From: Umbilicaria muhlenbergii
Lineage: Eukaryota; Ascomycota; Lecanoromycetes; Umbilicariales; Umbilicariaceae
Reading direction: 5' to 3'
NCBI GenBank assembly: GCA_000611775.1
Contig: KK106983.1
Coordinates: forward strand, 1,388,654 to 1,452,653
DNA length: 64,000 nucleotides
This document shows positions 12,901 to 57,572 of the stretch, one piece after another. The translations under genes and the position numbers were made by a program. How positions within the stretch are numbered: the first letter of the stretch is position 1; every line of letters starts with the position of its first letter. Under the pieces are notes generated by a model that saw only the letters and a list, made by a program, of their open reading frames with translations, did no database searches and was not told the DNA's origin.

Positions 12901-13680
12901 AAATGTTAATAATTATCATTATTATTAACATGTGAGTAATATCTGAAGAAATGAGACATGCTGCTAAATGATGAAGGAGGATGAATGTTGAAGAGAGTTG
13001 ATATGTGCAATTGATAAATTATTCTTTAACTTATGAATTTCAATATTAAAGCTTATGTGATTAAAAGCGCTGCTAGACAGGATCTGATGTTGATATTAAT
13101 TTATAACATTACTTAAATGATGAGGTGAAGTGCAAATCAAATGATGATAACATGAACAGAGGTGAGTTTTACAAGAAATGTTTATATTTATGTATTTTAA
13201 TCATGTTTCTGAAAACTTGTGTTGATATCACAGCATCTCACCTCTGCAGTAAATGCACTGAAAGTTAAATGTTGATGTCACAACATCTCATCTTTACAGT
13301 GAATGTGCTGAAAGTGCTGTGTTGATCTGACAACTTAACTACAGATGTGAAATCTACAGTTAATTATATTTTTTTTTCATGCACTTTAGCATTCCCCTTC
13401 TACACCTCATTATTGAAGTTTTAATTAAATAATGTTTTTAAATAACACCTGTGATATTTATTCATGCTGACAGAGGTTTACTTCTCTTCAAATCTTTAAA
13501 CTCTGTGTACTTTTCTCATTATTTTTAATACATGTTTTTCATGTTGTCCTTCACTTAAATACTTGTCAGTTAAATAATGCTCATAAATAATGTCTGCATT
13601 CATTCTTGATGATTGATGTTTTATTATCTTCAGATTTTACACACTTTTTTGATATGCTTCTTTATCTTTGATATATCTTC
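12901..13680. other. AT-rich stretch with short diverged direct repeats
   Basis: No gene is recognised. Around 13210-13330 a block like GTTGATRTCACARCATCTCA..CTGCAGTRAATGYRCTGAAAG occurs about twice, roughly 65 bp apart, with a third partial copy. The rest is T-rich, CpG-poor sequence. Confidence 0.35.
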
Positions 13681-13885
13681 TCAACTTCAACACATCTTGT
13701 CATCTTTAATAAACTCATCACCTTTAATGCACCTCATCATCTTCAGAACTCATCATTTTTAATACATTTCATCATCTTCAACACATCTTGTCATCTTTAA
13801 CACACTCAGTCACCTTCAACTCACTCTGTTGCAATCATCATGCTTCATTATATTCAACACATCTCTTTAATGCACCTCTTGTCTC
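13681..13885. repeat. Degenerate 18-19 bp minisatellite
   Basis: About ten consecutive units of the form CATCTTCAACACATCTTGT / CATCTTTAATAAACTCAT run across this interval. Each begins CAYCTTYAA and ends in a C/T-rich step. Units differ by transitions and one- or two-base length changes. The run ends just upstream of the histone-like relic at 14042. Confidence 0.7.
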
Positions 13886-14041: not shown

Positions 14042-14600
14042 AAGATGAACTTCATCAAGTTAAAAAGTCAGTGAAGATCTACAAATCATCAAAGAATAAA
14101 GTTATGAAGAAGCATCAGAAAGATTTAACATAATAATGATTAATTATATAATCTGCACCTTGAGGAAAAGGACCTGCTCACTTAAAGTGATTAAAAATTT
14201 TGTGAAAAGTCAAGTCAAGAAGTAAGTTTTTCATATTAATTAATAATGTCAGAAGCTGATGCTCTTTTGCAGTGAAAGTTCTTTATGAAATTAAACATTA
14301 TCAGCTTATGAAAGAGCTGTTTATTCTGAAAGCTGCATTTTAACATTTAATACATGAAATCATGATCAATCTGCCAGGCATGCAGAACATTAATATTAAA
14401 AAAATATATTAACAAAAGACTGCTCTGCTGATGTTGCAGAAGTCAACAAAGGTGTTGTTGATTTCATTTTTTAAAAGTAAGTTGTCTGAAATACAAAGTA
14501 ATGCTAAAGTTAATGCCTTTATGCAGATACTAATTTGCTCATCATTCATGAAAAGTGAATCATTATTTAAAGTAAGAATATAATTTTAACAAAACATCTC
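14042..14600 (+). pseudogene. Histone H3-fold relic, most like centromeric H3 (CENP-A), RIP-decayed
   Basis: Histone H3 variants wrap DNA in nucleosomes; CENP-A marks centromeres. Exon 2 reads KVLYEIKHYQ, then KELFILKAAF, HLIHEI, and after a loop QKTALLMLQ..TKVLLISFFK. These match the H3 helices (KALREIRRYQ, ELLIRKLPF, RLVREI, QS.A..ALQEA.EAYLVGLFE). Exon 3 continues NTNLLIIHEK, matching DTNLCAIHAK. Two clean fungal introns separate them: 14222-14272 (GTAAGT...TTGCAG, 51 bp) and 14477-14526 (GTAAGT...ATGCAG, 50 bp). The first joins a split ATG codon where H3 has Thr (ACG); the second joins AAA-AAT where H3 has Glu-Asp. All are G:C to A:T changes. The lysine before the VLYEI block and a loop 1 longer than that of H3 favour CENP-A. 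A third intron from about 14574 is possible. Several in-frame stops occur (for example at about 14352, 14410 and 14557), so this copy is dead. The exon 1 tail (about 14042-14221) is too decayed to fix a start. Confidence 0.72.
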
Positions 14601-14884: not shown

Positions 14885-15024
14885 ATTCTCAGTGTCTTAC
14901 TTTATTATCTGCTCTGATTCAACATGTCAAGATGAGTTTAAAATTACTGAGACACTGTCATCTGACTCAGTCTGATTCAGCCTGACTCAGTGTCACTCTG
15001 ACCCGCAGTGACAGCCTAGATAAG
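14885..15024 (-). mobile_element. Remnant of a TIR element related to the one at 24938-25605
   Basis: Read on the minus strand, the sequence starts at TA-GGCTGTCA and follows the left end of the 24938-25605 element for about 140 bp, including the CTGAGTCAGGC-like and ACAGTGTCTCAGTGA-like blocks. It differs by many C-to-T and G-to-A changes: the GGGTCGGG tracts have become AT-richer. The right flank after TA (15025) is gypsy sequence, and the rest of the element to the left is missing or too diverged. Non-autonomous, no coding sequence. Confidence 0.7.
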
Positions 15025-15383: not shown

Positions 15384-15620
15384 TCACATGATGTTTATAA
15401 TACTCTTAAAAGTAATATTCATGCACTTCAGCTGCTTCAAAAGCAGCAGGTTAACTTTAATAATAAATTTAAATTTTAAGAGCTTTTGATGATAACTGAT
15501 AACATGAAGATGTGCTGTGACTTTTTTATTATAACACTTTTGACGCGCCTTGAGGGTGATCAGGAGGGCAGGCAGAGAAGTGTTAACATTAACTTTATTA
15601 ATCAGATGAATCAATGTCAT
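15384..15620 (-). pseudogene. Antisense accessory gene segment, copy in the truncated outer element
   Basis: A 78-codon open stretch on the strand opposite to the gypsy genes reads TLIHLINKVNVNT and then LKARQKCYNKKVTAHLHV. It is clearly the same protein as the stretch at 30388-30645. Its 5' part, with the Cys motif at 22414-22446 (partly decayed), is now separated from it by the insertion of the 15615-22324 element. The last codons overlap the start of that element. Function unknown; see the entry at 30075-30855. Confidence 0.6.
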
Positions 15621-15842
15621 GAGTTAATGATAATTTAAGACTCACATAAAGTATGCACTTTATAAGTGATTTAACAGCATTAATGAATCATCTGAAAACT
15701 CTGCACTGCTCAATCTCACCTTGATTTCTTAATTATTAGTTTTATATAATTAAAATCATATAATCTTTATATATTTACATTTTATGCTGTTACATACCTC
15801 AACTATACTTCCCTTTCTAGTAAGGAATATTATAATTTAACA
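15615..15842 (+). repeat. 5' LTR of the 15615-22324 element
   Basis: Starts TGTCATGAGTTA and ends ATTTAACA; 228 bp, as in all complete LTRs of this family in the window. The 5-bp duplication ATCAA precedes it. Confidence 0.93.
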
Positions 15843-15929
15843 GTTTTAATAACTTTACCTTCAAAAGAGTAATGACTTGAGATAAGATGCAGACTTAAAA
15901 TTAATTATATTAAACTTTTAAAGTAGAAT

Positions 15930-16760
15930 AAAACATGATGATGAAGAATTAACAAAATGATGATGAAACAGCACTCATTTTCTCTGACATTAATGAAGTG
16001 AACTTCATAAGTAAAGAATCTTCAGGTAAAACAGTGCACAACATTAATAATAAAATTATGCAAGTGAGATGACAGTGAGATGAACTTTTAAAGTAATAAA
16101 AGCTGCAGCAGCTTTGAATAAAAGTTTTAACATTATAAGTCAATTTACTTAAGAATTTTGTCACTTATGTTGATATCTCAGCTGAGAGATTCTTCAACTT
16201 AATGAACATAAAGTTTATAACAAGCAAATGAAGTGCTGATGAAATGTATAATCAAGAATTCAGGTAAAGGTGTTACTGTTATATCATGATAAAAATATGA
16301 AGAAGCACTTAAATTGAATGCAGAATATAAAAAATATCTTTTATTTTAACTCAACTGATTTCCCTCATAAAGAGGATAAGATAATTTATGTAATGTAATA
16401 TTTAAAGAGTGAATCAAAGGAGGTGTGACTGCAAGATGATGAAATTAAAAATTATTTCATCATTACTTGAAATGATTTTATAAAATTTTTACTCAACATT
16501 ATTGAGGATCCTGTGAATCATCAGCTTCACATCACTTAATTATATAATGATGTTGTTCAATTACCTCATTAATTAGTTTAAGCTTTTAATAATTATTTAA
16601 ACACCTTGAAAGCTCAGTTACCTCCTTACAGTGAAAAGCACATGAGGATTCACTTTTTCACAAAATTGAAGTCTGAGATTTAAGCAGCCTTGATAAATTA
16701 TCAAAACTTACTCACAACTTAAAAAAAACTGTCATCTTAACAACACACCTGATGAATAAT
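15930..16760 (+). pseudogene. Fossil gag of the 15615-22324 element
   Basis: The region aligns in order with the better-kept gag at 39640-40470 and with 36050-35150 on the minus strand. Recognisable marks are an AERFF(D/N)LMN-like block near 16165-16200 and an F.H.YY-type helical region. Gag would form the particle shell. Broken many times. Confidence 0.65.
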
Positions 16761-17139
16761 TTACATTTAAGAGGCATCATGAAATTAAAAGTAAATCTTA
16801 ATATAACAGTTATCTTCAATTATAAATCTGAGTCATTGTTGAAGCTTGTTGAGAATAAGAATCACAAGCCTGATGAGGACAAGAAGAAGAGCAAGTGAGA
16901 TGATAAACATGAAAACAAATTATTAAAAACTTCTGCAATAGAGAATTTATCACACATGACTTGTTGAAATTGTAATTAAAAAAGATATTATTTCTTTGAT
17001 TATTCACAACCTGTGAAGAACTCAGACCTGAATAAGATCTTAATTATAATTATTTTAATATTAAAAAATGAAAACACTTCAGTGAAGACTTCACATCACT
17101 GAAGTGCTGAACAAATGTAACCTCAGAGTTTAATTTAAT

Positions 17140-19000
17140 TATTGATGAACAAGTCCTTCACAATGATGATGTCATACTCATGCAAGTCTTATTGAACATA
17201 AGAGCTGAAGTAAATGTGATTTCACAACACTTCATTATTGAGCATTAATTGATTCATATAAAGAGTTTATTACCTTAATCTCAGTTTTTAAATAATCAGA
17301 AGGCTTACTGCTTCAGTGTTTATCATGTGTGTTATCAGTTTATCAACAGTTGAGGGCAGTTTTAAGAAAGTGAATATATATTTTATACTTTAAAAAAGTC
17401 AGGATCACCTCTTATCTTTAAACTTCTTGCATTAAAGACTGATCAAGTGTGAATTAACTGCAGAATGAAGACATGATGCTTCAACATTAAAGAGCAGTTT
17501 ATTGAGCTACAGTCATCTGATGAATTCACAAAAGAGATTTAAGATCACTTTGCTGTTTACATCATGATATGAGTCAGTCTGAGTGATGACACTGCATCAG
17601 AGGTATGCATATAAAGCATTAATATAACATAAACTTTACTTAAGAAGTATGCTGATTATATGAATATATTTGTAACAGAGAATGCTGACCTTTTTTCATC
17701 TTATAAAATCAATGATCATGCAATTGACTTGAACAGCAAAGATTCACCTTATGACTTTTTATATAATCTCTTTAATACTGAGCTAGAGGTGCTATGAGAA
17801 TACTTGAATAACATTTTAATGAAAGATTAAATCTGTCATTTCATGAACTCTGCAGGAGCACTCATTCTTTTTGTTTTAAAAAAAGATGAAAAGCTGCAGT
17901 TATGTGTTGATTACTGAGATTTAAATAAAATGATCATTAAGAATAAACACCTGTTACCTCTTATAAGTGAAATGTTGAATTAGCTTAATGAAGTTAAGCT
18001 GTTTATGAAGTTAAATTTAAAGAACACTTATCACTGTATCTGTATAAAGAAGAATGATGAGTGAAAAACAGTATTTCACATGCATTATGATCACTTTGAG
18101 TATATGATCATGCTTTTCAGATTGATTAATGCTTCAGCTATGTTTCAGACTTATATTAATTAAGCATTAATGAGACTTGTAAATGTCTTTTATATTATCT
18201 ATTTAGATGATATCCTTATATACTTAAAATTATCAGTAAAACATTGAGAGCATGTTAAGCAAGTATTAAACAGACTTTATTGATTTCAACTTTATATAAA
18301 CTTTAAGAAGTGTGAATTCTTCATTATTAAAGTGAAATTTCTAAAGTTTATTATCACAACTGACAGCATAGTGATGAATTCATGATGAGTGAACATCATA
18401 TGAGACTGATCAGTATTAAAATCTTTCTGAGAAGTACAAGTCTTCTTGAGCTTTGTGAACTTTTATAAATACTTCATTAAGTGTTATTCACAAGTTGCAG
18501 CCCTCTTGATAAACCTTATGAAAGAAAGCAAAAATAAAAAGAAGTTTAAATCTTTTAAATTCTCAAATGACATAAAAAAGGTGTTTAACTGCTTTCATGA
18601 AATTTTTATGAAGATGCTCATCTTGATTCACTTTGATTTAAAGTTATGAATACAGGTGAAAATTGATGCATTAATTATCAAACTCACTGATATTCTGTCT
18701 CAATTATTGAATAATAGGAAGTGACATTTGATTATGTTTTAATTAAAAAAGCTGTCTTTTTCAGAGATTTAATATAAAACTCATGATCAGGAGCTCCTTG
18801 TCATCATTATAATATTTAAATATTAACATTATTATCTTGAAGGCAGCTATCATATCATAAAGATATTAACTGATCATAACAATTTATGAGAATTTATGAA
18901 CATGAAGGAATTGAATAACAGGTAAGCATGATGAGTGATGAAGCTTATTATTTTTAATTTCAAGATTTTGTATTAATCTGAAAAGATTAATCCTGCTGAT
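17140..19000 (+). pseudogene. Fossil protease, reverse transcriptase and RNase H of the 15615-22324 element
   Basis: The protease region lies near 17180-17260. RT shows the sequence around FVLKKDEKL near 17860-17900 and a YLDDILIYLK active-site block near 18195-18230. The thumb and connection region includes the 67-codon open stretch 18446-18649 (NFYKYFIK..SQVAALL). RNase H follows to about 19000. The order and blocks match the Ty3/gypsy pol type. Broken many times. Confidence 0.75.
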
Positions 19001-19489
19001 GCATCATCAAGATGATCAGACTACAGAGATGTTAAAAAAATGAGTAAAATCATGAAGAAATTACTCTCAACACTTTAAAGAAAGTTAATTACTCTTATGA
19101 ATATATTCTCACTTAAATATGCTTCTATTGTGAAGCAGTTACTCACAGAGGTGAGAAGAATGATCAGAATTAAAAATTTTAAACTTTAAAAAAAATACTG
19201 AAGAAGTGACAACAAATCATTTATTTATAATGATTATGACATAACTGTGAAACAGCTTAACTCTGTCACTGAAATTATTAATTGTAAACAATTTATTTCA
19301 CATGTAATGACAAGAGATCTTGTCATTCATGAAACAATTAATGAAAGCCTGAGTTTACCTCTGAGAAATTTAATTTAAACTCTACAAAATGATGATTCAT
19401 TTGTAGAGGTGATGCATGACACTGATTATACATCAGTGAAGTATAAGGTTAAAGCTGAAAGTTCTTAAAAATTTAACTCTGAAGGTCTT

Positions 19490-20790
19490 TTATTTCATGA
19501 GGAACAAATATACATTCTGAAAGAAAAATCAGTAAGAGCAGAGGTCTTGAAACATTATTATGACAATGTTTTAACAAGACATTTCAGAGTAGAAAGAACT
19601 CTTGAATTAATTAATTACAAATATTATTGAATTGATATGAGTTAAGATGTTAAAGATTATGTTGCATTATGTGACATCTGTCAAAGGATAAAAATGCTTA
19701 AACATCATCTTTATGAAAAGTTATAAGTGTTGCCTCAGTCAGAAGAATCATGACAGCAAGTTATAATAAATTTTATTACTGACTTACTGTCAAGTAAGCG
19801 CAAAGGTAGCATTTATGATGTGATTTTAATAATAATAAATTAATATATGAAAATGACTTAATATATTTAAATCATGAAAATGATTACAGCAACAAAGTTG
19901 ACTGACTTGTTTTATGAAGAAATAATATGTTGATTTAATGTACTGAAAGGAGCTGTCTTTAATTAAAGATTTATTTTTATAAGCACTTTCTGATCAAAAA
20001 TGTGCTATTATTTAAGAATGAAACATCAGCTCAGCACTGTTTTTCATTCACAGATGAATGAACAGACAGAATAATAAAATAAAATTTTAAAACATTACCT
20101 TCATTATTATTGCTCAGATGAATAAGACAACTGAATGAATCTTTTATCTCTGACAGAATTCACTTACAATAATGAAACATAAGCATTAATAAAGTGCAGC
20201 TCTTTTTATATTATGTATGCTTATCATTTAAAAGTAAGATTTAAAGTTAAAAATAACTTTAAAAAAGAAAAGATACCTGTAATTAAAGATTGAGTGAAAT
20301 AATTTCATGACATACAGAAAGTGCTGTCACAATGATGAGAAAATATAATTAAATTTTAAGTCAAATATTATAATCTTAAACATAAACTCAAGACTTATAA
20401 TGTGAGAAACTTAGTAATGCTATTCACAAAAAACTTATGATAGAAGCACTCAAGCAGAAAGTTATCTTACAAATTCATTAAATTATTTAAAGTACAGAAT
20501 TTAGTTGAGAAACAGGCATATTAATTATTCTTATCATTAAATTATTAAATTTATAATGTTTTTCATGTATTCTACTTAAAGCTGTATGAGCATTGATACA
20601 GTAATGAGTTTACACTGACTTTGCAATCATTAGAGTTGATTAATGATGAAGAGGAATATGAAGTTGAAAAGATTTAAAATCACTGAAAATACAGAAATAA
20701 AATCCTGTACAAAGTGAAATAAAAGGGTTGAGCAGAAGAATATAATTAATAAATGTTAAAAAAGAACTTAAAAAATGTGCAGAAAATATA
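19490..20790 (+). pseudogene. Fossil integrase and chromodomain of the 15615-22324 element
   Basis: The zinc-binding H..H/C..C domain is visible at about 19540-19690 (ending CDICQR). The catalytic core runs to about 20220, and a chromodomain-like EEEYEVE segment follows near 20650-20790. It matches 43220-44530 in order and sequence. Broken many times. Confidence 0.7.
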
Positions 20791-21074
20791 TGTAGCCTTT
20801 AATAATAAATTAAAAGAGTGCAGAAGAAAGTGATCAAGAAAACTTTAATTAATGTCATAAAAACACTTTTTCCTGATTTTCCTCAAGAGGTTTTATAAAT
20901 TTTATTAAAACTTTATAAGTCATCTACAGCAAGAGTCAAGAGTGACAAGTTCATTAAAAAAGATGAATCATCAACAAAGTGCAGAAGAATCACAATGTTA
21001 TTATTATTATAATAACAGATCTGAGCAGAGCAAAAGAATTATCATATAAAATTAATAAAATATCAACAAAAAAC

Positions 21075-21900
21075 AATTTACTCATCATCATCATCATCAT
21101 TATTAATGAGGGCAGGCAAATGCTTTTAAAATTAAATACACATTAACTGATCATAACCTTCAGAGCAGAGGTGAAGAGAAGGAAATTAAACTGAATATCA
21201 CATGATGTTTATGATATTCTTGAGAGTGACATTAATGTGTTTTAGCTGCTTCAAAAGCAGCAGACTGACCTTAATAATAAATTTAAATTTAAATGACTTC
21301 TGATGATAACTGAGAACATAAAGATGTGCTGTGACTTTCTTATTATATCACTTTTAACACACCTTGAGGGCGGTCAGGAGGGCAGGTGAAGAAATGTTAA
21401 CATTAATTTTATTAATTAAACAAATTAATGTGTTAATCTTGTGCATAAAGTATGACAAGATCTTAAATCATCAGTGAAACATAATAATTAAGCATGTTGA
21501 AATTATCTGCAAACATGCTTTGTGAAAATTCATGCAGTACATGCACTTTACATTCACTTAAACATCACAGATCTGAGTGATATCTTTAAAAAAATAATAA
21601 TTACATTAAAAATAAAATAATTTAATGAGTTGTGCACAGGAACCTGCAGAGCGCTTAATAATAAATAAACATTATATAAAATTATACATTAATCATGCAT
21701 ATGTGAAGCCTGCTTCTCTGACTTACAAGCATAATGACTGATGTTGTAATGATAATAAAAATACAATTTAAGAGTGTGTAAATAATGTTGTGATGATGAA
21801 TCATTGCTCATATAAAAGTTGTCAGCAGAAGATTAAGAAGTTATTAATATTTATACTTTAAAACTTTTATTATGATATCACAGTCTATGACCTTAATAAT
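21075..21900 (-). pseudogene. Antisense accessory gene, copy in the 15615-22324 element
   Basis: On the strand opposite to pol, the sequence at 21513-21545 reads as C-M-Y-C-M-N-F-H-K-A-C, keeping the C-x2-C-x6-C spacing. Toward 21075 come a KARQKCYNK-like region (around 21290-21360) and an Asp-rich tail from repeated CATCAT. The gene would start beyond 21800 and run leftwards, ending before the chromodomain region of the host element. It is decayed here; the copy at 30075-30855 shows more. Function unknown. Confidence 0.55.
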
Positions 21901-22096
21901 GTTATCATAATGTTGTCATGACTTCACTGCTGCCTCTTCACTTCTCAGAGTTTTCACTTTCACATGATTAATTCACCTCATTATCACTTCATTTAACTCT
22001 CACTGATGCTGCATCACTGCTTTAATAATTAATTGAGTTTTTTATCAGTTATTCATCTTTCTGCACTGAAGGGCTGCTGCATAAAGAGAAGATAAT

Positions 22097-22324
22097 TATT
22101 ATGAGTTAATAATAATTCAAAACTCATGTAAAGTATGTGCTTTATAAGTAATTTAACAATGTTAATGAGTCATCTGAAAACTTTGCATTACTCAATCTCA
22201 CCTTGATTCCTTAATTATTAATTTTATATAATTAAAATCATATAATCTTTATATATTTACATCTTATGCTGTCACATACCTTGACTATACTTCCCTTTTT
22301 AGTAAGAGATGTTATAATTTAACA
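22097..22324 (+). repeat. 3' LTR of the 15615-22324 element
   Basis: 228 bp, preceded by a purine tract (AAGAGAAGATAAT) where the better-kept copy has AAGGGGGAGGCAAT. It ends TTTAACA and is followed by ATCAA. Confidence 0.92.
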
Positions 22325-23090
22325 ATCAAGATGTTTACTTTACACATGAAGTGTGAAAAGACCTTGAATCATTAATGAAGCATAATAATTAAGTAGATTA
22401 AAATTATCTGCAAACACATCTTATGAATGTTGATGCAATACATGTATTTTATATTCATGTGAGTATCACAGACCTGAGTGATGTCATTGATAAAATAATA
22501 ATTACAATGAAGGCAAAATGACTTAATAAATCATGCACAAGAATCAGTGAAATGCTTAATGATGAATAAATACTACATAATGAATCACATTAAACACACA
22601 TGTGCTGAATCAGTTTCTTTAACTTACAGGCATAGTGACTGATGATGTAATGATGTTAATGATGTAATGTAAAGATATGTAAATGATGTGATTACAACAC
22701 TGAGCTGAAAATAATCATGATGATAATGATATTGATGACTGTGAAAAGAGAATAAACTACATTAATGAAATGAAAGTGAATTGCAGATCTTGCAAAAGAT
22801 GATGATGAAAAGTTGAGAAATTAACAGTATTTGTATTTTAAAACTTTTATTATGATATCACTGCCTGCTGTCTTGTTCATGTTATCATAACATTGTCATG
22901 ACTTTATTATTATAACTTCACTGCTGCTTCTCTGCTCCTCAAGGTTTTCACTTTCATGTGATTAACTCACTTCATTATCATCTCACTTAACTCATGCTGA
23001 TGTCATGTTACTGCTTTAACAGTTAATTAAGTTTTTTATTAATCATTCACCTTTCTGTGCTGAAGGGCCGCTGTATAAGGGAGAGGTAAT

Positions 23091-24244: not shown

Positions 24245-24935
24245 CATCCGCAATTTAGCAGCCCACTCAAAAATAAGGTTTTAGTTAATAGTACTTTATG
24301 CGCTCAGAGCACTCTCTGAGCAGTAAATGAGCTCATACAAATCTTACACTTTAAATAACTATTATACCTTCATGAATAATAAGAAACTTTTTATTGAAAA
24401 GTTTTAAATCTCTTTATTCTGTACACTTTACAAACTAAAGATTTCTTCATAAGTTTTAATTTGCAATAGTTATGAATTAAAAAACTTTGAACTAATTATA
24501 AATATATTAGCATATTAAATAACTATTGCGCTTTTATACTTATGATATAACTTTCAATTTATAAGTTGTAGAGAATAAGCTGTTTAAGAGTTTTCTTATA
24601 CAAAGTTTCTTTTTATGTGTTATTGTTGTTGAGTTATTCAAAAAGTCATCAAAAGTCTGTTTATTAATGTTGTGATTTTCATCACTGAAAGTTATATCAT
24701 AAGTATAAAAGCGCAATAGTTATTCAAAGTATGTGACTTTTTTTGAAAGATTTTTCACTATTGAAAACTTGAATTAAATATAACTTAACAACAGCAGCAG
24801 TTATAAAGAAACTTTTAATTTAACATTAATAAAGAATACTGTTTTTTATAATTTATGCATTGAAAGTTTCTTCATATCTGTTGAGGTGCAAAAGTTATTA
24901 AAGTGTGTAAATTTTTAAGTGATGAAAATCTTGAA
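24245..24935. mobile_element. Foldback-like repeat, copy 1 (right part lost)
   Basis: It begins CATCCGCAATTTAGCAGCCC, the same end as copy 2 at 28031, and is nearly identical to it over about 690 bp except in the centre. Two perfect 39-bp inverted repeats (24518-24556 and 24686-24724) enclose a 129 bp core. Copy 1 stops at the TIR element (24938), whereas copy 2 continues about 330 bp further. No coding potential is seen. It inserted into the LINE. CpG is kept in places, so it is less decayed than the gypsy copies. Confidence 0.75.
24518..24724. repeat. Perfect 39-bp inverted repeats around a 129-bp core (copy 1)
   Basis: The left arm AATAACTATTGCGC... to ...AACTTTCA at 24518-24556 is an exact reverse complement of 24686-24724. 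The core 24557-24685 appears in inverted orientation in copy 2 at 28441-28570. Confidence 0.88.
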
Positions 24936-24937
24936 TA

Positions 24938-25605
24938 GGCTGTCACCGCGGGTCGGGGTGACACTGAGTCAGGCCGGGTCGGGCCGGGTTGGGTGACAGT
25001 GTCTCAGTGATTTTGGACCCACCTTGGCGTGTCGGGTCGGGGCGGGTAATGAAGGCAGACACTGAGGGTAATTAGGACACTGAGAGCCGCAATAATTAGG
25101 GCTAAACCCTTCCATAATTTAATATATTATAGAACTCAACGCGCCCGTCAATTCTATGCAAAAATCATCAAGAACGGATCGCTGCGCATTAAGTTATGTG
25201 AGTTTGAAAGTTGACACTTTCGTCAAGTTGGTTGATTGATGATGTTCGCCACCCTGAACTTCAAACCCACACAACGCAATGCGCCGCGATCCGTTTTTGA
25301 TAATTTTTGCATCAAATTGACGGGCGCATTAAGCTCTACAAGTCAATAGAGTTGCAAAGAAATCAAGTCGCAATGTCATATTTAATAAGGGCATTACCTT
25401 GCGGCCTTATCTATTTTTTGAAGTTCGCGGCTCAAAAATTAAAGTTTAGCGCGCGGGAGTTAACCTGATTGAGTTAGTTCAGTGTCTATGTGGGTACCTC
25501 AGGGTCGACCCGGTTGGCCACTGGATACCGGGTCCGTGGAGGGGCTGGACCCGTGGGTCAGGTCTTTGATCATGAACTCAGCCTGACCTGACCCAAATGA
25601 CAGCC
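24938..25605 (+). mobile_element. GC-rich non-autonomous TIR element, 668 bp, flanked by TA
   Basis: Ends are GGCTGTCA and TGACAGCC, flanked by TA on both sides (24936-24937, 25606-25607). The inner terminal stretch is an imperfect inverted repeat including GGGTC.GG and TGAGT. Inside are GGGTCGGGCCGGG tracts and a central palindrome of about 80-bp arms (25131-25209 and 25257-25337). CpG is abundant, unlike the neighbours. The size, TA flanks and lack of an ORF suggest a MITE of Tc1/mariner-type target preference (inference). The left flank is the foldback repeat and the right flank is gypsy integrase sequence, so it sits on a junction of two unrelated repeats. Confidence 0.7.
25131..25337. 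repeat. Central palindrome of the TIR element (about 80-bp arms)
   Basis: The left arm contains CGCGCCCGTCAATT, ATGCAAAAAT and AACGGATCG. The right arm carries their reverse complements (CGATCCGTT, ATTTTTGCAT, AATTGACGGGCGC) in mirrored order, about 80 percent identical by eye, separated by about 47 bp. It may be a separate small inverted-repeat element nested in the larger one. Confidence 0.72.
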
Positions 25606-25607
25606 TA

Positions 25608-26800
25608 CCTGTATGTCATGAAATCATTTCACTTAATTTTTAACTGCAGGTATCTCCTCTTTCTTGAAGTCATCCTCAACTTCAAATCTTACTTCTGAAT
25701 GATAAGCATACATGACATAGAAAGAGCTGCACTTTATTGATGCCTGCATTTCATTGTTATAAGTGAATTCTGTCAGAGGTAAAAGATTCATTCAGTTGTC
25801 TTGTTCATCTGAGCAGTAACAGTGAAGGTAATGTTTTAAGGTTTAATTCTGTCATTCTGTCTGTTCATTCATTTGTGAATGAAAGACAGTGCTTAGCTGA
25901 TGCTTCATTCTTAAATAGTAGCACATTTCTGATCAGAAAGCGCTTGTGAAAACTGATCTCTGATCAGAGACAGCCCCTTTCAGTACATTGAATCAGCATA
26001 TTATTTCCTCATAAAACAAGTCAGTCAACTCTGTTGCTGTAATCATTTTCATGATTTGAATGTATTGAGTCATTTTTGTATACTGATTCATAATCATTAA
26101 AATCACATCATAGACGCAATCCTTGCACTTACTTGACAGCAAGTCAGTGATAAAATTCATTATGACTTGCTGTCATGATTCTTCTGACTGAGGCAACACC
26201 TGTAGCTCATCATAAGAATGATGTTTAAGCACTTTCATCCTTTGATAGATGTCACATGACACAACATAATCTTTAACATCTTGACTCATATCAATTCAAT
26301 AGTATTTGCAGTTAATTAATTCAAGAGTTCTTTCTACTCTGAAATACCCTGTCAAGACATCATCATGATGATGCTTCAAGATCTCTGCCTTTATTGACTC
26401 TTCTTTCAGAATATATATTTGTTCCTCATGAAACAGAAAGTCTTCAAAGTCAAATCTTCAAAGACTTTCAGCTTTAACCTTGCACTTCACTGATGTACAG
26501 TCAGTGTTGCATGTCACTTCTACAAATGAATCTTTATTTTGTAGAGTTTGAATTAAATCTCTTAAGGATAAACTCAGGCTTTCATCAGTTGTTTCATGAA
26601 TGACAAGATCTCTTATCATCACATGTGAAATGAGTTATTTGCAATCAACAGTTTCAGTGACAGAGTTAAGCTGTTTCACAGTTATGTCACAGTCATCATG
26701 AGCAGATGTTTTGTCATCACTCTTTCAACATTTTTTCTGAAGTTTAAGATTTTAAATCTCAGTCATTCTCTTCACCTCTGTGAGCAGCTGCTTTACAATA
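25608..26800 (-). pseudogene. Fossil integrase of the 25608-38294 element
   Basis: This matches 31620-32800 closely on the same strand. The zinc-binding domain lies near 26200-26450 (CDICQR-type end), with the catalytic core toward 25700. It stops abruptly at CCTGTATG next to the TIR element, where the sister copy continues with integrase C-terminal sequence. Broken many times. Confidence 0.75.
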
Positions 26801-28030
26801 GAGGTGTATCTGAGTGAGAACATATTCACAAGAGTGATTAATTTTCTTTGAAGTGTTGACAGTAATTTCTTCATAATTTCACTCACCTCTTCAACATCTC
26901 TGTAGTTTGATCACTTTAACAGCACATCAGCAGGGTTGATCTTTTCAAACTGATGCAAGATATTGAAATCAAAAGCAGTGAACTTTATTACTCATCATGC
27001 TTGCTTGTCATTCAATTCCTTCACATTCATAAATCCTCATAGATTGTTATGATCAGTTAATACCTTTATGATATAACAACTGCCTTCAAGGTAGTGTCAT
27101 CAGTGTTTAAACATTATAATGATGACAAGGAGCTCCTGATCATGAGTTTTGTATTAAATCTCTGAAGAAGACAGCTTTTTTAATCAGAACACAACTGAAT
27201 GTCACTTTTCATTATTCAACAGCTGAGACAGGATGTCAGTGAGCTTAATGATTAACACATCAGTTTTCACCTGTATTCATAACTTCAGATTAAAGTGAAT
27301 CAGGATAGATGCTGTCATAAAGATTTCATGAAGATAATTAAACACCTTCTTTGCATCATTTGAGAATTTAAAAGACTTAAACTTTTTTTCATCCTTGCTA
27401 CCTTTCATAAGGTTTGTCAAGGGGGCTGCAACTTGTGAATAACACTTAATAAAGTGTCTATAAAAGTTCACAAAGCTCAGAAAGACTTATACTTCTTGAA
27501 AAGTCCTTAATACTGATCAGTTCTGTATGATGTTCACTCATCATGAATTCATCACTACGCCTTCAGTTGTGATAATAAACTCTAGGAATTTCACCTTGAT
27601 AATGAAGAATTCACACTTCTTAAAGTTCATGTAAAGTTGAAATCAACAGAGTCTGTCTAACACCTGTTTAACATGCTCTCAGTGTTGCACTGATGATTCT
27701 GAGTATATAAGGATGTCATCTAAATAAACAACACAAAAAACATTCATAAGTCCTGTTAATGCTTAATTGATGTAAGCTTGAAATGTAACTGAAGTGTTGA
27801 TCAATCTGAAAGACATGATCATATACTCAAAGTGACTGTAATGCATGTGAAATGCTGTCTTTCACTTGTCACCCTCCTTGATGCAAATACAGTGATAAGT
27901 GTTCTTTAAATCTAGCTTCATAAATAACTTGACTTCATTAAGCTGATTCAACATTTCATTTATAAGAGGTAACAGGTGCTTGTTCTTGATGATTATTTTA
28001 TTTAATCTCTGATAATTAACACATAACTGC
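26801..28030 (-). pseudogene. Fossil RNase H and most of RT of the 25608-38294 element
   Basis: The 64-codon open stretch 27277-27471 reads [21 protein letters not shown], which is RT connection sequence. The RT active-site region is near 27700. RNase H lies between about 27240 and 26830. The rest of RT resumes at 29151 after the foldback repeat. Broken many times. Confidence 0.75.
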
Positions 28031-29150
28031 CATCCGCAACTTGGCAGCCCGCTTAAAAATAAGGTTTTAGTTAATAGTACTTTATGCGCTCAGAGCACTC
28101 TCTGAGCAGTAAATGAGATCATACAAATCTTACACTTTAAATAACTATTATACCTTCATGAATAATAAGAAACTTTTTATTGAAAAGTTTTAAATCTCTT
28201 TATTCTGTACACTTTATAGACTAAAGATTTCTTCATAAGTTTTAATTTGCAATAGTTATGAATTAAAAAACTTTGAACTAATTATAAATATATTAGCATA
28301 TTAAATAACTATTGCGCTTTTATACTTATAATATAACTTTCAGTTTATAAGTTGTAGAGAAGAAGCTATTAAACAGTTCTATAACTTAAAGTTTTTTTAT
28401 AACTGTTGTTGTTAAAAAGTTACATTGATTTCAAACTTTCAGTGACGAAAATCACAACATTAATAAACAGACTTTTAATGACTTTTTGAATAACTCAACA
28501 ACAACAACACATAAAAAAAAACTTTGTATAAGAAAACTCTTAAACAGCTTATTCTCTACAACTTATAAACTAAAAGTTATATCATAAGTATAAAAGCGCA
28601 ACAGTTATTTAAAGTATGTGACTTTTTTTAAAAGATTTCTCGCTATTGAAAACTTGAATTAAATATAACTTAACAACAACAGCAGTTATGAAGAAACTAT
28701 TAATTTAACATTAATAGAGAATACTGTTCTTTATAACTTATGCATTAAAAGTTTCTTCATATCTGTTGAGGTGCAAAAGTTATTAAAGTGTGTAAATTTT
28801 TAAGTGACGAAAATCTTGAAGTTCTTTAAATATTCAAAACTCAACACTTATACAGTGCTTTCAGACTCAACAAATCATGATTTTTTATTGCAGAAAAGTG
28901 AATTTTAGCAAAAGTTTACTTATTATAAGTTTTACTGTTATTATAACACTGTGTGTGTACTTGTTTAAACAATTGTTTTAATAACTGTTTTTTTATCACA
29001 AAATTTTGATGTTCCGCTCAAGATTTAAGGTTGAGCTCAAAGTGCTCAAAGGGTGCTAAGAGCAGCTGTTAGCTGAGACATGAGATCAGAAGCTCAGAGC
29101 GCTCAAAGTGTTAAAAATTAACTCAGAGTTAACTTGCTAAATTGCTGATG
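28031..29150. mobile_element. Foldback-like repeat, copy 2 (full, 1.12 kb)
   Basis: Left end CATCCGCAACTTGGCA; right end, read inward on the other strand, CATCAGCAATTTAGCA. This gives a terminal inverted repeat of about 17 bp with transition differences. Gypsy RT sequence continues directly on both sides. No clear target duplication is seen. The inside contains 39-bp inverted repeats (28304-28342, 28571-28609, one or two mismatches) and a 228 bp core that holds the core of copy 1 in opposite orientation. A run near 29030-29110 repeats GCTCAAAG/GCTCAGAG motifs. No ORF of note. Confidence 0.72.
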
Positions 29151-50195: not shown

Positions 50196-50592
50196 GGGCA
50201 ACACCGCACTATAGGCAACACTGCACCCCCCCATTTCACCAATTGAGCTGTAAATTTCAATCTAAATAAGGAACTTTGAAGCTTTACATTATAATTTATA
50301 ACAGAGCTGTAGGATTCTATGCATTTCAGCACCTCTGAGGCTGCTTTTGCTGTGACAACTGCAGTCTTTACAATCTGCTTCTTCTCTTTATCCTGCAGCT
50401 GTTTTGACTTCCTAGCCTGTGTCTCTAGCTGCTTTCTGAATTTGTAAGAGTGTTATTATAGGTCTCAATGACCTTCAGAATATGCACTTCTTTCTTCATT
50501 GAATGCATACAATTATGGTGGAGAAACGGGTAATCTCAATAGTTGAGGGGGGGGGGGGGGGGTGCGGCGTTGCCTATAGTGCGGCGTTGCCC
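50196..50592 (-). mobile_element. MITE-like DNA element, 397 bp, 37-bp terminal inverted repeats
   Basis: The ends GGGCAACACCGCACTATAGG... (50196-50232) and its reverse complement (50556-50592) form inverted repeats of about 37 bp with three transition differences. Each TIR holds two direct copies of GGCAAC(A/G)CYGCA. The AT-changed version is the end touching the decayed LTR. A 16-base G run (50547-50562) abuts the right TIR. On the minus strand a frame of about 85 codons (from about 50440 leftward) is Lys/Gln-rich at first (KQLETQARKSKQLQDKEKK) and reads on into the TIR. Just upstream, another frame has MKKEVHILKVIETYNN. Such tails are common at the C-terminus of fungal pogo-like transposases, so this may be an internally deleted derivative (inference). 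No clear target duplication. Confidence 0.72.
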
Positions 50593-50959
50593 CGTGGACT
50601 ACGTTACAGCAATTGAAGACTACTCAGTGTGAATAACCTCATGACATGTACCCCTTGACTGCCGTTGATCACTAGAATTCTGTTCACGGGTCAGCGTCTC
50701 TGTTCAAAGACTATGAAGCGCTTGAAGCAAAGTTTCCAAGTCACTCAAGGCCTGCTCAAGGGTACAGCAGTGCCAGGAGGCTTGCAACAAATGCAATACA
50801 CCTGCTTCAACCTGAGAGCACCTATTGACTTTGATACTACTACATTAAGTCTAGCCCCGGATTATCTATTATTCCGAGACGCTACGTACGTAGTACTACA
50901 TTACAAAGAAACTGCTAAACGCCCCAATTGAGTCAGCCCATTATGCCGTAATAATGCAC
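50593..50959. other. Island sequence without a recognised gene
   Basis: GC-normal sequence between the MITE and the dehydrogenase fragment. An 88-codon + frame (50665-50931) reads through most of it (MITRILFTGQRL... to KETAKRPN) but shows no known domain. No repeat signature or RIP-like decay is seen. Confidence 0.35.
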
Positions 50960-52178
50960 AAAAGCATTGGGCTACCCCACCTTTTGTGCAAACAACTGGC
51001 CGCCGCGCAGATTGATTGTTTTCTCCATAAGCGCCCCAATTGGGAATTGGTTGGAAGTGAAAAAGAAATCTCCAATCAACGCAATGTTGCCGGCCTTTCG
51101 AGTCGCCCTAATCACATGGGTAATCATGTCTGATTGGTCGCCTTCTACGCCTGCACCAACGTGGGAATACGCTCACGGAGAGGGATAGGGACTTTACCTA
51201 TGGCCCTCACGGTGGTTTGTAGCCAGCTTTGCGCGCTTCTAAACCCGCTCGCCTCGGTACCCTTATCGAGCCCATGCGGCTCTTGCTGCAGGATATAGTC
51301 CGAAACGCTCTCATGTTTGCTAACGTCGATGCCAATGCATCCAAAAACTCTCAGCAATTTTCAACCTTTCTGGGTCTGGGTCGACGGCATAGACTTTCTT
51401 CGCTCCTCTGAAGAAGCTGAGTTTAGGGATACTGAGCCCTATCGGCCCACGTCCCCAAACACCAACCACGTCGCCTTTGCCGACTTCGGCCAACTCGCAG
51501 CCATGCCAGGCGGTGGTCGCCACGTCCGCAAGCACGAGCGATTTTTTGGGAGAGACGCCTTCCTTCGGTGCCTTCACAAGCACGATATCAGCGTTGGGCA
51601 CGCGGCAGTATTCAGCCTGGTTTCCCGGGTATCCTCCTGTAAGATGGGTGTAGCCGAAAATCCCCGAGAGGCGGTGACCCCTTTGCAAACTGTTTGTGAG
51701 CAAAACTAGGCTGCAGTCAATCAGACAGAACGTATAGGCGATCCATTTCCTTGGTCGGATTGGTCCTATCGCATAGGAAGTACTCCTGCAAGCATAAACC
51801 CATCAGTCATTTGCGCAGCCGCTGTGGATGGTCAAGACTGACTTGACGCTTGCAATAAAAGCATTCACCGCAAGCAATGACGGGAAGGATGATGACTCTA
51901 CCTCCCTTCTGAACACTCTTCACTTCTGGGCCAATGTCATCCACAATTCCAATAGCCTCATGACCCATGATATCGCCCTTCTGCATGGCTGAGTCCAACT
52001 CGCCCGTGTCTGGCGTTACATGACACCGTCAGAAATCCCACGATGCTGCGTTATTGTCGGCGAACACTTAAAACTCACACATGTGTAGATCGGATCCGCA
52101 TATAGTGCAGTGGGTGGTTTTAATGATTGCGTCTTTGGGGGCCGTAATCATTGGCTTGGGAACGGAGTTGACTGCCAT
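50960..52178 (-). pseudogene. Zinc-dependent alcohol dehydrogenase (MDR family), 3'-truncated and frame-broken
   Basis: Medium-chain dehydrogenases oxidise alcohols or aldehyde adducts with NAD(P) in the cytosol. The start at 52178 gives MAVNSVPKPMITAPKDAIIK and the catalytic-zinc motif CTICGSDLH. Intron 1 is 52010-52078 (GTGAGT...CCAG), rejoining as LHM-Y-TGELDSAMQ. Then come GDIMGHEAIG, DDIGPEV and IACGECFYCK. Intron 2 is 51786-51842 (GTCAGT...TGCAG), after which EYFLCD supplies the last structural-zinc Cys. Next are FGYTHLTGGYPG, AEYCRVPNADIVL, the nucleotide-binding GVWGRGPIG and the KVYAVD strand. One frame shift lies at a T run near 51345 and another near 51160; a third problem lies near 51670-51735. 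The sequence ends after GGQLFAQK at about 50965, so the C-terminal 50-60 residues are missing. Base composition is normal with no RIP-like bias. Probably a dead or partial copy. Confidence 0.85.
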
Positions 52179-52330
52179 GGTTTTTGCTCTTATATATTGA
52201 CACGCGAGCATCTTCTCCTTTGGGTCTTCCTTGTACATTGTGTTGTATACGGGTCTGGCTAAGTCCAGCGGAACGTATATAAATTGTTTTTGGGACTTTC
52301 TACGGCATTGGCTCTACGTACGCTGGAACT
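52179..52330 (-). promoter_or_regulatory. Upstream region of the dehydrogenase, with TATA-like boxes
   Basis: On the minus strand a TATATAAG box lies about 10-20 bp before the ATG (52189-52196) and a TTTATATACG box about 100 bp before it (near 52276-52285). The second is at a more usual fungal distance. No experimental support; assignment by position only. Confidence 0.35.
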
Positions 52331-53183
52331 TCACTCATGATGACAGATATCAACCTTCGACAATCATAGTGTGGTGATATGGGAGCTTAGTAGGGTTCTA
52401 TTTGTTCGAGAGGGAAAAAAAGAGGTGGACCCCGCTGTGTTTAATGAGAAACGAGCCTATTGACTTGTCTAGCGAAAGAGTCCTCAGTCTCCGTAGATTC
52501 CGATTAGTATTTCAGTCTTCAGGGTTGAACATCACGATGCGTTACCCTACCGCTCCAGTAAGATTCGTGTGGGAGCCAAAGATCCATCAAACAATAGGTT
52601 GACGTGACTATGAGGTACTACGCAGTGTGTTGGCAATAAGAACAGAATGACGGGTAGCTTACCAATCAACCTTGGGCGGAACGCAGTCCCGCCACTCATT
52701 CTGCGGCAACGGTTGAGTGTGCCACCCCTTCCGGGATCACCTCGGTTGCGGATGGCTGGATGGGTTGATATTAGTGACACTGAGTAGCGCCTGTGCGGCA
52801 ATAGCTTGCTCAACTGCCGCGTGAAGAATCGTAATCGTTGAATTCCAGCGCTGTCGGCTCTCAGCAGTCGCCTATTGGGGTTGATGTCGGGGTTGAATAT
52901 CAAGGGAGGGTTCAGGGTTTAGGGTTTTCAGGGTCCAGGCAGTCACGGTGTAGGCCCTGACAATGGTTTCACAAGTAGTGGCTTATGTGCAGTATTTGAG
53001 TGATATGTAGAATGTCAAGTGCAAACTAGCTACTGAAGCCAGCTATGTAAGAATGCTGATGTAATCAGCTCACAGGCTTCCCCCCTCACCCTATCTCAAA
53101 TGTAGGGAATTTCAATGCCAATAACAAGGAGCAACAAACAGCAGCAACAAAGCATGAAGCATAACTCATTCATAAGTAATCCC
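52331..53183. other. CpG-bearing island flank without a recognised gene
   Basis: GC-normal sequence with frames on both strands (for example 52402-52602 + and 52547-52903 -) that show no domain, no convincing start context and conflicting orientation. Near 52910-52935 there is a short GGGTTTAGGGTTTTCAGGG run. From about 53040 composition shifts to the AT-rich, decayed type. Confidence 0.4.
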
Positions 53184-53741
53184 TCAAAAGCAAAGACTCA
53201 CTGCTGTCATAGGCTTGATCTCAGCATCTGAGAAGACATATTCTGGCTCATCCTCAGTATCATGAGGAGGTAGAATGAGACAATCTTCTTCTTCTGCATT
53301 GATGTTGAGGTTGAGTAATTGTTGAGCATCACTCATCATGTACTGATTCTGTTTCAGCTCAATGAGTGTGTCCTGAGGATTAATTGTGACTGTTGATGTG
53401 TCACTCATATTCATGAGCATGTGCATAAATCCTTCACTCATGATTTTAAACTTCAGAATTTGAAAATGAGACTGCAGATCCTGATGCTTTTCTTGAAGAG
53501 ATTCAAGCTTTGCTGCTGATGTTGTGATGATGTTCCTCAGAGAGAAGTTCTCTTCAATAAGAGCTGCATTTGCTGTATTGAAGAGCTTTGACATCTCTCT
53601 CTTCATCTTTGTCATCACTACATGTCTCTTCACTGACTGCTTAATCATTTTAATGACATTCTTTCTTTTCTTAAACATCTGAACTTTCTTTCCTCTGATC
53701 TCTTTGATCTCAGAGATTAAATCCTTGTTGATCTTGATCAT
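53184..53741 (-). CDS. 185-residue coiled-coil protein, unknown family
   Basis: The longest open frame in the window. Residues 1-50 are Lys/Arg-rich (KEIRGKKVQMFKKRKN, then KQSVKRHV). Residues 50-105 form a predicted coiled coil (FNTANAALIEENFSLRN then LESLQEKHQDLQSHFQ). Residues 145-175 are acidic (AEEEDCLILPPHDTEDEPEY). A helical, basic-then-acidic C-terminus of this kind is seen in several fungal transposases, but no catalytic motif is present to prove it. Coding-like sequence seems to continue to the right in other frames (FKKMLQSEGGRVISN near 53790-53835), so this is probably the C-terminal part of a larger broken protein. It may be the 3' gene of the fossil to its right or a separate element. 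Confidence 0.4.
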   Translation of the reverse strand: MIKINKDLISEIKEIRGKKVQMFKKRKNVIKMIKQSVKRHVVMTKMKREMSKLFNTANAALIEENFSLRNIITTSAAKLESLQEKHQDLQSHFQILKFKIMSEGFMHMLMNMSDTSTVTINPQDTLIELKQNQYMMSDAQQLLNLNINAEEEDCLILPPHDTEDEPEYVFSDAEIKPMTAVSLCF

Positions 53742-54186
53742 GTAATAAGTACAGCAACTTCTTCTTGATTACATTGCTGATCACCCTTCCTCCCTCAGAT
53801 TGCAGCATCTTTTTAAATCAGTCATTTGTGACTGCATGAATGTTTTTAATTTGCTTCTTCTTCCTGACCCTGATCATCTTTTCTTCAAAGAACCTCAGCA
53901 ATTCCCTTTTAGTCTTTCATCAGTCAACATTGTTGATAACCTTCTGCAAGTTGAAATCTGTCATCAGATGCTTCTCAGACTGATTCTTCACTTTCACAAG
54001 TCTTCAGTATTTCTTATATCAAATCCCTTTTCAATTAAAACAGTATGACGTGATCTTATACTTCATGATTCATGATTTGTCCTTTGAGAGGGTGACTAAT
54101 TTCATGTTGAAGAGGTGCTGATCATGTGAAACATTTCACTTCAGATTTGACATCATCTTCTTTTGCTTTAACAGTGTCTTGTGTTT

Positions 54187-54690
54187 TCATTTCTTTGATA
54201 TTTGACTTTCACTTATGAGCTCATTGACATCAACTGATTCCTTTAAGCTGCTGTTATCAATGTTTTTTAACTTCAGAATATCAGACACATCCTTTGACAG
54301 TTTAACTGTGAACTTCTTAAAAATCTCAGGAGAAAACAAAAAAGATACATTTACATTCTGTTTAATCATTTCATACTCATTCTGAACATGTGTTATTAAT
54401 TTTTTTAAAGCAGTTGCTGCCTTCATGATCTTGAGTTTTTTTATTAATTTACTTGGCTGATTCTGCTCCTGATTACATTTTTTATTTAATTTAATGCCTG
54501 TGACCTGACTTCCTGCTTTAACATTAATGTTTACATGATTTTTTAATCCTTCCTCACTGAACACCTCTGTTACATCAGCAAATGCTGACATACTTTTCTT
54601 GCTTACTCTGTTTTCATCAGTGTACTCATGCTCTTCTCTCATATTTTCATTATTCAGGGCATTCACTCCCTCTGTATTATCTCTCATCAC
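54187..54690 (-). CDS. 167-residue charged protein, unknown family
   Basis: Open frame from an ATG at 54690. Residues 1-30 are acidic (NNENMREEHEYTDEN), then mixed, with a basic Lys-rich centre (KLIKKLKIMKAATALKKL around residues 82-100) and a helical end (LSKDVSDILKLKN). No motif is recognised and no signal peptide or membrane span is visible. It is followed on the same strand by broken coding-like sequence and then the 53184-53741 frame, so both may be fragments of one gene of a mobile element. RIP-like context. Confidence 0.35.
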   Translation of the reverse strand: MMRDNTEGVNALNNENMREEHEYTDENRVSKKSMSAFADVTEVFSEEGLKNHVNINVKAGSQVTGIKLNKKCNQEQNQPSKLIKKLKIMKAATALKKLITHVQNEYEMIKQNVNVSFLFSPEIFKKFTVKLSKDVSDILKLKNIDNSSLKESVDVNELISESQISKK

Positions 54691-55900
54691 TTCTTGATAT
54701 GCTTTTACTTTAAATCAGAAAGCTGACTTCCTGCTGTAAGCTGTAATGTTTAAGAATTTATGATTTCAAGTGCACTGCCTGCTTGAGCGCAGTTCAGAGC
54801 TTTGAACATGATTTGAACTTCAGAAGAGAAAGTTATCCTTATAATATTTTAAGCTGATGATAAAGTATTGAGTCAGAGTGATAAGTTGAGTGAGGTCTGA
54901 CCTGATCTCAGATATTATGATATGAGACAGTTTTGATATGAACTGTGCTCAAGTCAAAAGATTCAACTGCTTCAATGATGATTTTAATGATGATAATGAC
55001 ATGTCTTTCTGATTTTAGCAATTTAATCTGCTCTTCATGATGCACAAACACATGATGGTGAATTATGATGAGTACATAAGAAGAATGAAGATGTGATGAT
55101 GATTCTCACATTATTATTATTATCACAGGCTGAGTGAATGACTTCTGCTTCATGATGAAGAAAAGAAGTGAAAAATGATGAAGACTGTTTTCATTCAAAC
55201 TTCATTATCTTTCTGTTTCATTTTCATCACTTTTTTAATGACTTTTTATCATATGATTGTACCCCGCTTCTGATGTGAACATCATACTGATACACAGTTG
55301 CTTTCAAGACATGTCATGATTATCAACTGCATGTTTGCTGCATGTATCATTGAATTCACCTCTTGCATCATATTCACTTCTTCATCATTTTCTTTCCTTC
55401 AATTTGCTTTCTCATTTCCTTCAGAAGCTCACTCCTCAGAGTTTTAAACACTGTTAAGAACTCTCTCTTATGATAAGTAATTTCATATGAGGGGATTTAA
55501 GTGAGTGTGTAGTTTCTTAATGAAGTGCTTCATTGAGTGTGAGTGCATCTCAACATCTCTGTCACTTTCTCTCAGCCTGTCCTCATATTCAGGCCTTCAG
55601 ATATGCCTCTGTAATAATGCTTTGTGACTGTCATACTCATTATGACAGGTAGTCAGTAATTAAGGTGATGATAAATGCTTCACTCATGATGTATATTTCT
55701 TCTGCCATTACTGCTTTCTTTTTCTCAAGGTTAATGCTCATCACATTACTTTACTACCTCTGTTGAACACCTCTGTTCATTATCTTTCTTCAATCATACG
55801 CTGAATATTCACCGCTTTGAATTTTCAGAACACTCAGTTCAGTTCATCATCATATGTATCAATCAGGAAATTGAAAGATATTCTTTTTCATTAATCTTCT
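54691..55900. other. Decayed stretch without a recognised gene
   Basis: CpG-poor, T/C-rich on the + strand. Minus-strand readings are Lys/Glu-rich in short runs, but no motif is seen. Probably the 3' region of the fossil that starts at 58030. Confidence 0.4.
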
Positions 55901-57305: not shown

Positions 57306-57572
57306 ATTATTATTCAACAAACTATAAGTATGATTCAATGAACTAGGCCAGGTTCAATGAACTACATGATTAATTTATTATTCAACAAACTATAAGTATG
57401 ATTCAATGAACTAGGCCAGGTTCAATGAACTACATGATTAATAATCTTAAGGTTAAGATCAAGTGAGGGAACTAGTAGTTGTAGTTTTAAGAGATTGCAT
57501 TTAATACATGAGTTGAACATGAACTTCTAACTATGAATTTACCTGTGATTATATAAACTCTAGGAGACTCAT
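57306..57572 (-). mobile_element. 267 bp insertion flanked by 14-bp direct repeats, SINE-like
   Basis: The sequence between 57292-57305 (GTGATTGAAGTGAT) and 57573-57586 (GTGATTGAGGTGAT) interrupts integrase sequence. The two 14-mers differ at one site and fit a target duplication. On the minus strand the insert starts ATGAGTCTCC and ends GAATAATAAT, a simple A/T tail as seen in SINEs and LINEs. It is little decayed (GGCCAGG kept). It contains a perfect 68 bp tandem duplication. No box A or box B of a tRNA gene is convincing, so the class is open. Confidence 0.55.
57307..57442. repeat. Perfect 68 bp tandem duplication
   Basis: 57307-57374 and 57375-57442 are identical base for base. Within each unit TTCAATGAACTA occurs twice, 19 bp apart. 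The absence of any difference points to a recent duplication or to copying with the element. Confidence 0.95.

Follow-up and report, generated by a model that had tools for sequence, protein, structure and literature searches.

According to the excerpted text of PMC9577544, duplicates of the centromeric histone CenH3 arise recurrently in Caenorhabditis but are short-lived, and no comparable fungal CenH3 fossil is described in the excerpts of the matches listed from the open-licence literature. The signatures of fungal repeat decay given in excerpts of PMC4352252 are CpA, CpT and CpG, and depletion of CpC is unusual against these. Repeat decay of the CpG type is reported for Tuber melanosporum, at CpG plus CpA, and for Microbotryum, at TpCpG (PMC4352252 and PMC5381629, both in excerpt), and the former source, in the same excerpts, ascribes the CpG signatures of Tuber and basidiomycetes to methylation followed by deamination. 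For the basidiomycete Rhizoctonia solani AG8, the part of PMC4014442 consulted describes a CpG-biased hypermutation that includes genes. Here, we describe the remnant of a histone gene in a repeat-rich stretch of 64,000 nucleotides from Umbilicaria muhlenbergii, which was analysed as a whole and is referred to below as the window.

An earlier note on this DNA had read a decayed histone gene at 14042-14600. The reading it quoted is present in the sequence, with a frame that is continuous through exons 1-3 on the plus strand. The end of exon 1 (14212-14221) aligns with the R-P-G-T codons of Cnp1 and H3, from which it differs by transitions only, and its last base is the first position of a codon. 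Intron 1 (14222-14272, 51 nucleotides) and intron 2 (14477-14526, 50 nucleotides) each run from GTAAGT to CAG; both preserve the frame, so that the three pieces join in one. Intron 1 interrupts the Thr codon of PGT and intron 2 the Asp codon of FED-TNL, both in phase 1. Exon 2 (14273-14476) carries the H3-family fold from ALREI to FE, including a loop-1 stretch of 16 codons and stops at two codons. Exon 3 extends beyond the part quoted previously, from the TNL at 14527 to the RR(I/L) of H3 and CENP-A at about 14600, and contains two further stops. Given these four in-frame stops in the fold (columns 26, 33, 65 and 69 of the codon alignment), the remnant is a pseudogene and is predicted to encode no working protein now. 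Neither the C-terminus past RR(I/L) nor the N-tail of the histone was recognisable.

Translations were searched with X in place of stops. The spliced reading matched the Pfam Histone family (PF00125) with an E of 2.6e-7 and 31.4 bits (cut-off 26.4), and solved PDB chains of H3 and Cse4 with an E of about 1e-8; the best-scoring chain was an H3, with Cse4 less than 1 bit behind. Addition of the end of exon 1 lengthened the match tailward, to 43-135 of H3 9lox_A and 20-112 of Cse4 6qld_e. When pieces were searched alone against Pfam, exon 2 remained below the Histone cut-off (E 0.0079, 16.9 bits), and neither exon 3 nor the N-terminal piece nor any of three short ones gave a match. The first part of the extent that had been claimed, 14042-14211, has no histone support. 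It may be a decayed N-terminal tail and keeps the frame, but several stops interrupt it.

Because the splicing had been picked by eye, an unspliced control was performed in which all six frames of the window were compared with a profile that combined Cnp1 and Cse4 with two H3s. The best place in the window was 14278-14478 (profile 3-65, 23.3 bits) and the second best, in another frame, was 14514-14597 (profile 61-88, 14.8 bits); these matches to exons 2 and 3 stand in profile order. By comparison, the next unrelated place in the window scored 4.2 bits, and the top score among 30 Markov-simulated windows was 12.2 bits. The combination of Pfam, PDB and unspliced profile matches confirms that the remnant is a genuine fossil gene of the H3 family.

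The direction of decay was assessed codon by codon against Cnp1, Cse4 and two H3 chains (8ol1 and 7wlr), with the loop-1 stretch (16 codons) excluded. With S. pombe Cnp1 as reference, 57 of 80 codons are identical or reachable by C>T/G>A changes. Permutation of the window's codons among alignment columns gave a mean of 15.5, and none of 5000 permutations reached the observed value. Among the non-identical codons, 31/54 fit the C>T/G>A direction and 0/54 the reverse, in agreement with the G:C to A:T decay that had been claimed. Similar counts were obtained with H3 8ol1 (58/80 identical or reachable; 29/51 changed codons forward, none reverse), H3 7wlr (58/77; 27/46 forward, none reverse) and Cse4 (50/75; 23/48 forward, one reverse), and total reachability fails to separate CENP-A from H3. 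A chance resemblance to a histone was considered and rejected on the shuffling and the simulated windows. Approximately one-quarter of the codons are unreachable from each single reference (23/80 for Cnp1, 25/75 for Cse4, 22/80 for 8ol1 and 19/77 for 7wlr), which suggests that the encoded protein was already divergent before it decayed. CENP-A is usually divergent in this way, whereas H3 is not.

Loop 1 is long, as the earlier note had it. The codons between REI and the column occupied by Trp in CENP-A and Phe in H3 number 16 in the remnant, compared with 15 in Cnp1, 12 in Cse4 and 9 in H3, so that the stretch is seven codons longer than in H3, in frame. The codon at the Trp/Phe column itself is a stop, which can be reached from Trp by two G>A changes and never from Phe. 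Canonical H3 is recognised by a near-invariant fold with nine residues from REI to Phe, which the remnant does not show; an H3-family fold with a loop 1 longer than that of H3, as expected of CENP-A, is what was found. By contrast, the lysine before ALREI, which had been offered as a further sign of CENP-A, is not diagnostic against the references used here: this position is T in Cnp1 and V in H3, and neither reaches lysine by C>T/G>A. Nine columns, including the Trp/Phe column, separate H3 from the two CENP-As used here, both of which are from yeasts (Cnp1 and Cse4). Three of these fit H3 only (11, 17 and 26), two fit CENP-A only (33 and 36), one fits both (73, identical to H3 and also reachable from CENP-A) and three fit neither.

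A CENP-A-like remnant is thus the better reading and, on the loop-1 and codon evidence, probably the correct one as against H3; that it was CENP-A rather than another H3 variant is what we infer. It is unlikely that the remnant is a canonical H3 or a non-centromeric H3 variant, with extra loop-1 codons that would be a later in-frame insertion or the variant's own. H3 chains do score as high as Cse4, three of the nine separating columns match H3 only, and variant H3 is mentioned for Basidiomycota and Zoopagomycota in the excerpted text of PMC6703697; the abstract of that paper, however, has most ascomycetes without H3 variants. The seven additional codons and the stop that cannot be derived from Phe also argue against an H3, as do the 22/80 and 19/77 codons that cannot be derived from 8ol1 and 7wlr, respectively. 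Given that 91% of the mismatches between repeat copies in the window are transitions, such numbers would be too high for a near-invariant protein.

The histone remnant lies in a segment of ∼4.5 kb (10.4-14.9 kb) in which, at E 1e-15, no repeat dispersed within the window was detected. When pieces of 11.1-14.05 kb in three of its six reading frames were compared with Pfam, the sole match was to DUF2457, below its cut-off, and no second gene remnant was seen among them. Imperfect short tandem arrays with units of 19, 35 and 50 nucleotides occupy 13218-13826, just upstream of the remnant. Searches of the window with Rfam (gathering threshold) and for tRNAs returned nothing. On the downstream side, a decayed gypsy-type LTR element lies near the histone at 15594-22332 on the plus strand, with a related fragment from 15019. 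Comparison of repeats within the window placed decayed gypsy copies also at 29.5-36.3 kb (minus strand) and 39.3-46.2 kb, and gypsy fragments are present in addition to these three.

Pfam searches of 18 of the 35 stop-to-stop open reading frames of at least 80 amino acids gave Integrase_H2C2 and the Tf2-1 SH3 domain above cut-offs; RVT_1 narrowly missed its cut-off (E 2.4e-6), and all other matches were likewise sub-cut-off. The earlier note had set the gene among chromodomain retroelements. The gypsy identity of the neighbours and a Tf2-1-like SH3 domain (E 1.4e-11) uphold this in part, but the Chromo match itself is weak and below cut-off (E 0.035); integrase ends of the chromodomain type are likely on these elements. 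The proposal that the region may be centromere-proximal reaches past the evidence, and none of the results bears on a centromere.

A second histone copy was not detected in the window at E 1e-15, a result consistent with a history in which no duplication took place and a single-copy CENP-A gene, replaced elsewhere, decayed inside a spreading methylated compartment. The CpG poverty of the gene's non-repeat segment, which resembles that of the adjacent gypsy copy (0.04 versus 0.02), would also fit. However, CENP-A is essential in most fungi, so that a working copy would be expected elsewhere, and we regard this history as distinctly unlikely. The reading preferred here is that the remnant derives from a duplicated copy.

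The earlier note had attributed the decay to RIP. Classical RIP is associated with TA/AT above about 0.89 and (CA+TG)/(AC+GT) below about 1.03, whereas the 2-kb bin from 14001 gave 0.79 and 1.62, respectively, with a CpG observed/expected ratio of 0.10. Over 11-15 kb, this ratio is 0.04 for CpG and 0.41 for CpC, and CpA is enriched (1.49). The window as a whole has a CpC/GpG ratio of 0.59 alongside its CpG depletion. In a gene-like, GC-rich island at 50200-53200, the corresponding values are 0.76 for CpG and 1.02 for CpC. This island includes a zinc alcohol dehydrogenase-like sequence at 51.3-52.3 kb (51323-51802, minus strand), which matches distant solved enzymes only (best 4cpd, E 2.5e-16). 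The two longest open reading frames of the window (53187-53768, 194 amino acids, and 54190-54714, 175 amino acids) adjoin the island and gave no Pfam match above cut-off. A perfect two-copy tandem duplication of 68 nucleotides at 57307-57442 is probably recent, given that it lies within decayed sequence.

The sequence context of the mutations was obtained from two comparisons of repeats. For gypsy copies, the transitions quoted above were counted in 16 overlapping pairs, each with no less than 78% identity and no fewer than 600 columns; in these pairs, the proportion of C read as T in the other copy was 0.39 for CG, 0.29 for CC and 0.19 for both CA and CT. TCG is nearly absent from these pairs, with 5 counted positions compared with 146 for ACG, 209 for GCG and 36 for CCG. 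The second and most telling comparison involved an inverted-repeat element with ends TAGGCTGTCA. A CpG-rich copy of 672 bp that looks young (24936-25607) adjoins a decayed gypsy fragment, and a decayed end of the element lies at 14888-15018 on the minus strand, ∼0.3 kb downstream of the histone. Direct repeats of 97% identity (24245-24544 and 28031-28330) flank the young element together with a gypsy fragment at 25600-28030. The alignment of the two copies comprises 159 columns, of which 28 bases of the CpG-rich copy lie outside the element. On the assumption that the CpG-rich copy represents the unmutated state, the decayed end has 28 C>T/G>A changes, one reverse change and 10 other mismatches, and the mutated fraction is 14/31 for CC, 9/20 for CG, 5/23 for CA and 0/14 for CT.

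Within the histone, the putative context was determined for 26 changes, all at columns on which Cnp1 and H3 agree, and was CT in 13, CG in seven, CC in four, CA in one and ambiguous in one; a further 11 such columns are unreachable by C>T/G>A. The excess of CT (13/26) conflicts with the repeat pair (0/14), and may stem from neighbouring bases that were themselves mutated.

Classical RIP acting at CpA after duplication of a CENP-A gene is consequently improbable as the cause. The transition-dominated decay of the repeats and the similar bias in the gene are what RIP would give, and CpA is partly mutated in both repeat comparisons, but the CpA to TpA preference of RIP was not found: CpA is enriched where CpG and CpC are depleted, both indices of the bin from 14001 fall on the wrong side of the RIP values, CpA is the context of a single histone change, and the nearby repeat pair mutates first at CpC and CpG. 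It is most improbable that the gene was carried within an inverted-repeat DNA element with its right end at 14888-15018: this 131-bp terminal sequence has an exact TAGGCTGTCA end close to the gene, but the best other scores (18.5 and 16.5 for end 1, 16.0 for end 2) compare with 13.5-17.5 for shuffles, which were 35-mers against queries of 45, the eight best places for each end include none to the left of the gene on the plus strand, a stricter search of 10.4-15.06 kb gave the known end only, and gene capture was rejected because no left end was found. A retrocopy was rejected because both introns are retained.

The account that we favour, with a probability of about 0.75, is that a DNA-level copy of a fungal CENP-A-like gene, probably generated by duplication, came to be located in a repeat compartment and was destroyed there, as were its neighbours, through C>T mutation acting first at CpG and CpC. 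The short introns, the type of gypsy element and the decay suggest a fungal host. The cause would probably be a RIP-like process of a non-canonical type, or else deamination after cytosine methylation. A more ambitious version, in which this fungus had a divergent second CENP-A lineage (a paralogue) that was eliminated by a genome defence targeted to CpG plus CpC, such that CenH3 duplication is policed by repeat-directed mutation, is doubtful. On the favoured account, the fossil in its mutated compartment would exemplify the loss of a CenH3 duplicate from a fungal genome. The loop 1 and introns of the remnant could be compared with the living gene, and the decay context at CpG and CpC, not CpA, provides a second testable point.

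Compared with S. pombe Cnp1 and S. cerevisiae Cse4, the remnant has the same H3-type fold, a lengthened loop 1 and a loop-1 codon compatible with Trp, and it shares TNLL with Cse4; it differs from both in its four stops, several H3-like columns, and a C-terminus and N-tail that cannot be recognised. The dense C>T/G>A changes in repeats and a linked gene resemble the RIP of Pezizomycotina, but the decay in this window affects CpG and CpC first and CpA much less. The context is nearer to the CpG-type decay of Tuber melanosporum and basidiomycetes than to the usual RIP. As in Tuber melanosporum and Microbotryum, transitions in the repeats are centred on CpG, with TCG almost gone, and unlike in those fungi, CpC is depleted in addition.
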